Source of the DNA: Seleniivibrio woodruffii
GTDB lineage: Bacteria; Chrysiogenota; Deferribacteres; Deferribacterales; Geovibrionaceae
DNA: 64,000 nucleotides
NCBI RefSeq assembly: GCF_004339245.1
Contig: NZ_SMGG01000004.1
Span: 124,001 to 188,000 of the forward strand
Reading direction: 5' to 3'
The first letter of the stretch is position 1. Each line of letters opens with the position of its first letter. The position numbers were made by a program, and so were the translations under genes. Under the pieces are notes generated by a model. The model ran no database searches and was not told the DNA's origin. It saw nothing but the letters and a program-made list of their open reading frames with translations. Below, piece by piece: positions 20,335-21,716 of this stretch.

Positions 20335-20367
20335 CAAAAAAGCCCAGCCTGAGCTGAGCTTTTTTTC
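20335..20367. terminator. original terminator of the tRNA-Leu gene, now detached
   Basis: Stem AAGCCCAGC/GCTGAGCTT (one mismatch), 4-base loop, T runs on both strands. It lies just beyond the 3' tRNA fragment, so before the insertion it would have terminated the tRNA-Leu transcript on the minus strand. Confidence 0.7.
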
Positions 20368-20371
20368 CGTA

Positions 20372-20427
20372 ATGCCGAGAGGGGGACTCGAACCCCCACA
20401 GGCTTTGACGCCCACAGGATCCTTAGT
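20372..20427 (-). repeat. attachment-site repeat (left): 3' fragment of tRNA-Leu
   Basis: 56 bases identical to 21628-21683, covering the tRNA-Leu 3' end, T arm, variable arm, 3' anticodon stem and anticodon loop. The match ends just past the anticodon loop. This is the usual footprint of site-specific integration into a tRNA gene. Confidence 0.9.
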
Positions 20428-20507
20428 TAAGAGTAATTCTTTAGGTATTAATGAGTTGCAAAAAATAGTGTAGTCACAGCTCTATATTTATCAGTTATTT
20501 AATGTAG

Positions 20508-21461
20508 TCATTTGGTATTTTTGTATAGCACAATATTTTTGAATGCCTCGACATCACTAACGTATTCGCTTCGATGTATCATAGCGTGACAATTGGGGCA
20601 TAAAACACTGAAGTCTTTTTTAGGGTCCATTAGTATTTTTGATTCTATAGATGATATAGGTCTAAGATGATGAGCTTCGATATAATTAGCGCCTATTGGT
20701 CCATATATTTCACCCATGTCCACATCGCAAGCTTGGCATTTATAGCCATGACTCTTTTTTGCAGCGTTAGATAATGCTGTGTTGCGTTCGATTCTTCTAT
20801 GTAGCCTTATTTTGGTTGGATCTTCAAAGAATTTGCTATTAACACCACTCACTTCATCTTGTGTTACAGATGCAAGTAACATGACGTCACTTGCAGATAG
20901 ATAGTTATAAATCTTAAGCATCTTTCTGAGATCATCAATTAAGATTTGTTCATCAGGGATATTATAGGCTGAGTAATAAACAGATATTATTGAGGCTGTT
21001 CCATATAAATCATTATTACTATTTTCTTTGCTGTGTTTAAGGTCGATCGGTCCTTTTTTATAGTCATTTGCTAATGAACCTAATTGCGCTAAATAATCAA
21101 TTGCTTTTGCTTTTAACGCGTCTTTAGTTTTTGCTCTATATTCTTCCTTAAAAACTGTAACACCTTGATTTAAAGATAAATAGAAACCTGAAAAATCCTC
21201 TGAAAAAAGATAGACTGGATAATAGCCACATTGAACAGTATTCGTTATTAACTTATCAAAAACTGCAATCCAAGGTGATTTTGACCAGTTTCCTTTGCCA
21301 ACGCTACCTTGTATTATGTATCTGTCGTCATTTACGATGTCCATAATAATTGCTGGAATATTATGTCTTACATAATTGCCAAAGTTGTTGTTGCTGAAAG
21401 ATGTATGACGTGACTTAGGATACTGTTTGAGAATATATTGCAAAGCTGTTTGTAAACTCAT
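20508..21461 (-). CDS. MrcB-N (DUF3578)/HNH endonuclease, putative defence nuclease
   Basis: 317 residues. Residues 1 to about 180 (YILKQYPKSRH, IQGSVGKGNWSKSPWIAVFD, GYYPVYLFSEDFSGFYLSLN) match the DUF3578 domain that recognises modified DNA at the N-terminus of McrB-type proteins. The C-terminus is an HNH nuclease: YKCQACDVDM, YIEAHHLRPIS and LCPNCHAMIH carry the zinc cysteines and catalytic His pair. This pairing is found in modification-dependent (type IV-like) restriction enzymes. GGAG stands six bases before the ATG. A/T-rich codon use differs sharply from the neighbours, fitting recent gain. Confidence 0.85.
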   Translation of the reverse strand: MSLQTALQYILKQYPKSRHTSFSNNNFGNYVRHNIPAIIMDIVNDDRYIIQGSVGKGNWSKSPWIAVFDKLITNTVQCGYYPVYLFSEDFSGFYLSLNQGVTVFKEEYRAKTKDALKAKAIDYLAQLGSLANDYKKGPIDLKHSKENSNNDLYGTASIISVYYSAYNIPDEQILIDDLRKMLKIYNYLSASDVMLLASVTQDEVSGVNSKFFEDPTKIRLHRRIERNTALSNAAKKSHGYKCQACDVDMGEIYGPIGANYIEAHHLRPISSIESKILMDPKKDFSVLCPNCHAMIHRSEYVSDVEAFKNIVLYKNTK

Positions 21462-21586
21462 ATCAACTCCGTGTATTTTATGAATTTACACACATACTAT
21501 GCTTTTTTGGGAATAAAGCAATTCTGTTGAGCAAAGTGACCACGTGATTAAAAAATGTAGTCATTTTTAATATTAATTAGTGCACG

Positions 21587-21619
21587 AAAAAAGGCTTTAG
21601 GTTTTTGACCTAAAGCCTT
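21587..21619 (-). terminator. element-borne terminator downstream of tRNA-Leu
   Basis: Perfect 12-bp stem AAGGCTTTAGGT/ACCTAAAGCCTT with a 5-base loop and a T run on the minus strand. It lies inside the inserted element, 10 bases after the tRNA 3' end, replacing the detached terminator at 20335-20367. Confidence 0.85.
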
Positions 21620-21627
21620 GATATTTC

Positions 21628-21683
21628 ATGCCGAGAGGGGGACTCGAACCCCCACAGGCTTTGACGCCCACAGGATCCTTAGT
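21628..21683 (-). repeat. attachment-site repeat (right), inside intact tRNA-Leu
   Basis: Identical 56-base partner of 20372-20427. It continues into the 5' half of the tRNA, so this end preserves the functional gene. Confidence 0.9.
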
Positions 21684-21716
21684 CCTGCGTGTCTACCAGT
21701 TCCACCACCTCGGCCT
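21629..21716 (-). tRNA. tRNA-Leu (AAG)
   Basis: The minus strand folds as a class II tRNA. Acceptor GCCGAGG pairs with TCTCGGC (one G-T), followed by discriminator A; no CCA is encoded. The D arm has GGTAGAC, the anticodon stem CAGGA/TCCTG encloses loop CTAAGGA with anticodon AAG, a long variable arm follows, and the T arm is GGGGGTTCGAGTCCCCC. It is the integration target of the 1,256-bp element and lies about 155 bases before thrS on the other strand. Confidence 0.93.

Follow-up and report, generated by a model that had tools for sequence, protein, structure and literature searches.

Cis-mobilizable elements (CIMEs) are elements that keep attL and attR and from which the integration and transfer genes are absent (Pavlovic 2004 and Bellanger 2011, both via PMC5704250), and they are described as decayed ICEs or IMEs. 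The element that we describe here lies in a 64-kb stretch of DNA, the whole of which we call the window (G000:C4:124001-188000), and the coordinates of the element are given in window numbering. It is like a CIME in that attL and attR are both retained, integration and transfer genes are absent and its flanks are a repeat of the target gene; it differs in that it carries one gene, that its arm-like sites are intact at each end and that it has no known conjugative parent. In function it resembles a CIME, and we class it as CIME-like; conjugative descent belongs to the CIME definition, and our searches found no parent or intermediate.

Genomic islands without an integration module, and bounded by repeats of an RNA-gene 3′ end, are also known at the ssrA gene of Dehalococcoides (PMC3146451). 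These islands share with the window element the absence of an integrase, the RNA-gene 3′-end repeats and the recurrence in one lineage, but their recombinase is of the serine type and their repeat is 20 bp long, and they form tandem arrays beside integrase-bearing islands and carry dehalogenase cargo, whereas the window element has a tyrosine-type att of 56 bp, stands alone and carries a predicted nuclease. Phage satellites (PICI, P4-like and PLE) encode, to our knowledge, their own integrase, and usually functions for the control of replication or packaging. The window element resembles these satellites in being small, in carrying a defence-type gene and in its probable reliance on another element, but consists of one predicted nuclease gene, with no integrase of its own and no genes for replication or for packaging control. 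Integrase-less, att-bounded elements are already precedented; new here are the minimal form (one gene in 1,256 bp), the arm-like sites that are intact at either end, and the finding that a single putative arm-site octamer (the arm word) recurs at three tRNA-Leu isoacceptors within one family.

An insertion in tRNA-Leu(AAG)

Our analysis demonstrated an insertion with att sites, its own terminator, one gene and no integrase, as well as the association of the arm motif, and supported the site-specific nature of this insertion. The features of the element, listed in the orientation of the tRNA, are:

21629..21714, minus strand: tRNA-Leu(AAG), the integration target (ARAGORN)
21628..21683, minus strand: attL, a copy of the 56-bp repeat (from the identity of the repeats and the empty site in G002, G003 and G004)
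21591..21619, minus strand: intrinsic terminator borne by the element, directly downstream of the tRNA
21556..21563, no strand assigned: candidate arm-type site near attL, reading TGACTACA in the tRNA orientation
20508..21461, minus strand: single cargo gene of 317 aa, MrcB_N (DUF3578) with a C-terminal HNH, predicted nuclease
20503..20510, no strand assigned: candidate arm-type site of the attR end, over the stop codon of the gene
20469..20476, no strand assigned: candidate arm-type site of the attR end, closest to attR
20372..20427, minus strand: attR, the second 56-bp copy (3′ half of the tRNA)
20336..20365, minus strand: the tRNA's native terminator, now displaced and homologous to the terminator directly behind the tRNA in relatives with an empty site

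The original prediction of exact 56-bp repeats of the tRNA 3′ half at a spacing of 1,256 bp was confirmed, since the copies at 20372-20427 and 21628-21683 are identical at 56 of 56 positions. Each copy spans from the anticodon loop of the tRNA to one base beyond its 3′ end, and the tRNA gene itself (21629-21714, minus strand) is intact according to ARAGORN. A repeat of the tRNA 3′ end made by the insertion, as seen here, is a defining trait of islands that tyrosine integrases target to tRNA genes. Between the repeats, and read in the tRNA orientation, are a terminator (21619-21591), TGACTACA (21563-21556), the 317-aa ORF, and TGACTACA again at 20510-20503 and 20476-20469. The interior of the element has a GC content of 0.329 (0.339 for the ORF, compared with 0.48 for the window), and just 0.5% of 954-bp windows are equally low.

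Using comparison genomes chosen at one per species, we found the empty site in three genomes of the same genus (G002, G003 and G004), where other sequence follows the tRNA. The post-tRNA terminator of G002 and G003 is homologous to the terminator located in the window just beyond attR (CTCGGCATACG...AAAGCTCAGC...GCTGGGCTTTT), and after this terminator G002 has the same left neighbours as the window. Since the native terminator is now located beyond attR, the element inserted directly behind the tRNA and ahead of this terminator, and supplied a terminator of its own; the arrangement of a terminator after the tRNA is also present in integrase-bearing tRNA islands of the family. In G004, the end of contig C1 and the start of contig C26 (L033 and L035) both break inside tRNA-Leu(AAG), with an overlap of ~123 bp, which would fit the presence of two junction versions side by side.

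Cargo gene and putative arm-type octamers

The cargo gene (20508-21461, minus strand, 317 aa) is the sole ORF in the element and is intact, with a GGAG ribosome-binding site upstream of its ATG. That the element carries a single AT-rich gene of the MrcB-N/HNH type, as originally predicted, agrees with this one ORF, its GC content and the match to MrcB_N (PF12102, E 2.3e-50), and by this profile match the MrcB_N assignment is certain. The Pfam HNH match at the C-terminus is weak (0.07, below the cut-off). The same region matches the HNH/Type IV models of PADLOC, is similar to a solved 5mC-specific HNH enzyme (6ghc, E 0.01), and has the pattern CxxC..EAHHL..CPNCHAMIH, which aligns with MrcB_N-HNH homologues and includes the HNH catalytic motif. 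Homologues from Paenibacillus and Priestia have the same MrcB_N-HNH order (29% and 26% identity, respectively, over 93%), but they are plasmid-borne, with the Priestia copy located among restriction genes, whereas here the integrated element carries no other gene; two Psychrobacter relatives have the MrcB_N part alone in common with it. The cargo gene was not found in the 99 relatives searched, which gave HNH-level matches only; our search for viral relatives of the nuclease found none, and the plasmid and phage homologues are all below 60% identity. From its families, the cargo is predicted to be a modification-dependent (Type IV) restriction nuclease, and we infer both its nuclease activity and its role in defence.

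The octamer TGTAGTCA occurs on the plus strand at 20469, 20503 and 21556, i.e., once at the attL side and twice, 34 bp apart, at the attR side, and the copy at 20503 overlaps the stop codon of the cargo gene (the TGA of TGACTACA). The 64-kb window contains six copies compared with 1.15 expected. An 8-mer with at least three G/C that occurs at least three times across both non-coding ends of the element was seen in 0 of 5,000 dinucleotide shuffles of these ends, demonstrating that the clustering of the octamer in the element is not due to chance. Islands that target tRNA genes have arm-type repeats near both ends, and the three TGTAGTCA octamers, as putative arms, are located in the same way. 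Across the order, the attR-side pattern of octamers was found in the window only.

We also scanned viral contigs for tandem TGTAGTCA, with the reversed word as a control and at least 120 loci for each. Among the matches listed, tandem TGTAGTCA occurred within 400 bp of a tyrosine integrase at 16 of 120 loci (0 of 120 for the reversed control), and, again among the matches listed, within 300 bp of the end of the locus at 29 of 120 (5 of 120 for the control). For example, a P2-like prophage in tRNA-Leu(TAA) (L209) contains tandem TGTAGTCA ~96 bp from the tRNA, with its integrase at the far end. The scan and this prophage indicate that genuine integrases make use of TGTAGTCA, in one case at a tRNA-Leu. 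Viral contigs with the exact tRNA end of the window, or with both the octamer and a tRNA that terminates in the Leu-type TNTCGGCA, were not found. A looser search for tRNA-GGCA with the octamer was uninformative (12 matches, most of them tRNA genes carried by phages, where the octamer falls within or close to a coding sequence), and the papers that we retrieved on the octamer as a possible arm site were unrelated. The proposal that three octamers flank the gene like arm sites gained support from the shuffles, the viral-contig scan and the scan of tRNA ends described below, and the TGTAGTCA octamers are very probably arm-type sites of an integrase.

Integrases and armed tRNA-Leu loci in the family

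As originally predicted, the element contains no integrase, and thus departs from the tRNA-targeting islands of tyrosine integrases, which encode their own; no tyrosine recombinase is present in the 64-kb window, and six are present elsewhere in its genome, the nearest integrases being distant from the element. The templates for our comparison were the islands in tRNA-Leu(TAA) of G000:C3 and tRNA-Phe of G000:C5, the tRNA-Leu islands of G008:C1 and G010:C7, and the tRNA-Leu prophages of G002:C3 (tRNA-Leu(CAG)) and G005:C1. The template islands have a tRNA repeat of ~40-60 bp that starts from the anticodon loop, and short repeats with a pitch of 11-12 bp near both ends, often past a terminator, and integrase-bearing islands have a common layout, in which the first att is followed by a terminator and arm repeats, then by the cargo, and finally by further arm repeats and the second att. 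The integrase-bearing tRNA islands and prophages of the family (e.g., G000:C3 and G002:C3) are like the window element in their anticodon-loop att, their own terminator and the short repeats near their ends, but they are 7.7-43 kb in length, encode a tyrosine integrase next to an arm site and differ in arm word. Each family integrase has an arm word of its own (TTACACT, TTTCTAAC, TTGTAAA, TGGCGCAA or TGACGGTA). The window's genome contains integrase-bearing islands at G000:C3:34877-50183 (tRNA-Leu(TAA)), G000:C5:163.1-170.9k (tRNA-Phe) and G000:C7:51.9-71.6k (tRNA-Arg(CCT)), and these three have a separate arm word each.

Tandem TGTAGTCA arms were not found in the flanks of ~60 recombinases from 12 family genomes. 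The resident integrases were rejected as helpers, as their islands use other arm words and no tandem TGTAGTCA, including pairs with one mismatch, is located within 1.5 kb. A relative holding a larger, integrase-bearing island at this tRNA had been named as a case that would make the element a plain deletion, and such an island exists: in the sister species G001, the orthologous tRNA-Leu(AAG) contains a 22-kb island (G001:C9:185110-207442; L065 and L068) with a tyrosine integrase adjoining the tRNA and a 2086-aa Avs3a. We rejected it as the parent, since its att core is 20 bp in the T-loop, compared with the 56-bp anticodon-loop core of the window element, and no sequence is shared; the window element is therefore not a plain deletion of the G001 island.

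The presence of the octamers at other tRNA-Leu elements had also been proposed as a check, and they are indeed present beside other tRNA-Leu genes of the family and in the P2-like tRNA-Leu prophage. Our search of 290 genomes for a tRNA T-loop followed after 60-90 bp by TGACTACA, with the reversed word as a control, identified a tRNA 3′ end and then TGACTACA at six places in 5 of the 290 genomes (control, 0). Four of the six are in the window's family, and all four are at tRNA-Leu, i.e., the window, tRNA-Leu(CAG) in G008, tRNA-Leu(CAG) in G010 and tRNA-Leu(TAA) in G010; the other two are tRNA-Ser genes in unrelated genomes. At the two tRNA-Leu(CAG) loci (G008:C1:626.6k and G010:C6:42.9k; L440 and L432), HipBST-like genes are located directly after tandem TGACTACA, and encode proteins of 74 aa (HTH), 102 aa (HipA-N) and 306 aa (HipA-C), in the order of the HipBST toxin-antitoxin family (described in, e.g., PMC6581861). 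In the G010 tRNA-Leu(TAA), the arms are followed by a Mu-like prophage. No integrase was found near any of the four armed tRNA-Leu places in the family, and the other armed loci suggest that the window element, like others of its type, relies on an integrase whose gene is located elsewhere. No attR was recognisable at the armed loci of G008 and G010, so the window element alone is complete at both ends, and these G008 and G010 loci look decayed. In G006, which belongs to the genus of G008 and G010, the orthologous tRNA has neither arms nor hip genes up to the end of the contig. The last 18 bp of tRNA-Leu(CAG) and the terminator are repeated in tandem in G006 with no insert (G006:C2:273133-273345; L441), and tRNA-terminator spacer repeats of this type are also present in other species. 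We discarded three further octamer pairs: the one other match at a spacing of 8-38 bp (G008), which is within coding sequence and at chance level, and, among the pairs 2-12 bp apart, those at G000:C3:683263 (coding sequence) and G050:C19 (a simple repeat).

Origin and mobility of the element

We consider it probable that the window element is a non-autonomous, CIME-like element that was inserted by a tyrosine integrase now absent, and that it is movable only if such an integrase is supplied. According to this explanation, a tyrosine integrase would recognise the TGTAGTCA arms and cross over at the anticodon stem-loop of tRNA-Leu, joining to the chromosome either a ~1.26-kb circle or a larger parent that was later shortened. 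Integration would have rebuilt the tRNA at attL and left the 56-bp tRNA copy at attR, the element's own terminator would let transcription of the tRNA still end, and its single cargo gene, for the predicted HNH nuclease that depends on DNA modification, would be of a defence type. As the core and arms needed for excision are kept and the integrase is absent, movement would require a matching integrase, delivered in trans by a phage infection or a newly arriving island, or in cis through tandem integration, and we infer mobility in trans. The spacing of TGTAGTCA, which differs from the usual 11-12-bp tandem, argues against this explanation, as do the result that no integrase with TGTAGTCA arms was found in the genome or in 12 family genomes and the decayed look of the armed loci of G008 and G010.

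It is a serious possibility that the element is a plain remnant, i.e., that an island or prophage of greater length, with TGTAGTCA arms and its own integrase, entered tRNA-Leu and then lost the integrase and the rest through a single internal deletion, which ran from the nuclease gene's 3′ end to the arm at attR and left a static leftover. One deletion would be enough, since the cargo is located directly inside attL, as is common for cargo, but its end would have to fall within a few bases of the stop codon and the arm site. Decay is in keeping with the other TGTAGTCA-armed tRNA-Leu loci, which look decayed and have no attR, one being followed by a Mu-like prophage, and with the definition of CIMEs as decayed elements (PMC5704250); however, the relatives, family genomes and viral sequences searched yielded neither a parent nor an intermediate that shares this gene or these arms, and the sole integrase-bearing island seen in tRNA-Leu(AAG), that of G001, is unrelated. 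If it is a remnant, the element is an example of single defence genes stranded at tRNA genes.

The original prediction of a minimal satellite stands in part: the element is site-specific, integrase-less and has arm-like octamers, but a cognate integrase was not found in the genome or the family. We are doubtful that the element never had an integrase and is an att-arm cassette that uses the integrases of TGTAGTCA-arm phages or islands and pays with a defence or addiction gene. A helper was found neither in its genome nor in the 12 family genomes, both att copies are present at the window locus only, and our search for armed loci started from the motif and not from integrases, so their comparison with integrase-bearing islands is biased. 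Set against this, the family's TGTAGTCA-armed tRNA-Leu loci, which represent at least three insertion events, all have no integrase, the cargo is small and of a defence or addiction type in two of them (the nuclease in the window and the HipBST-like genes in G008 and G010), the window keeps both att copies with arms on both sides, and integrases with TGTAGTCA arms are common in phages. The broader proposal, that the tRNA-Leu genes of this family contain a class of integrase-borrowing mini-satellites, i.e., ~1-2-kb att-arm cassettes with a single defence or addiction module that never encoded an integrase and are moved by TGTAGTCA-arm phage integrases, we think rather unlikely. If cassettes do move in trans, one defence gene with ~250 bp of att and arm DNA would be a sufficient mobile unit, and one that integrase-based searches would miss; the arm word is a handle for finding both cassettes and helpers, and the expected helper would be a TGTAGTCA-armed phage or island crossing over at the tRNA-Leu anticodon loop.

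Duplication of the tRNA 3′ half with no integrase, through homologous or illegitimate recombination of incoming DNA, is highly improbable: an 848-bp insertion in G005, with a 119-bp, 95% repeat that extends past the tRNA into the terminator and with no arm repeats, indicates that other routes may exist, but the window repeat ends at the anticodon loop, like the integrase-made att sites (42-53 bp) in the same genome, and the window element has its own terminator and arm-like octamers at both ends. This G005 insertion (G005:C1:1452955-1453803; L101) is located in tRNA-Leu(CAG) and contains one gene and no integrase; the gene encodes 188 aa with no confident Pfam or PADLOC match, and a 19-bp perfect inverted repeat is present upstream of it.
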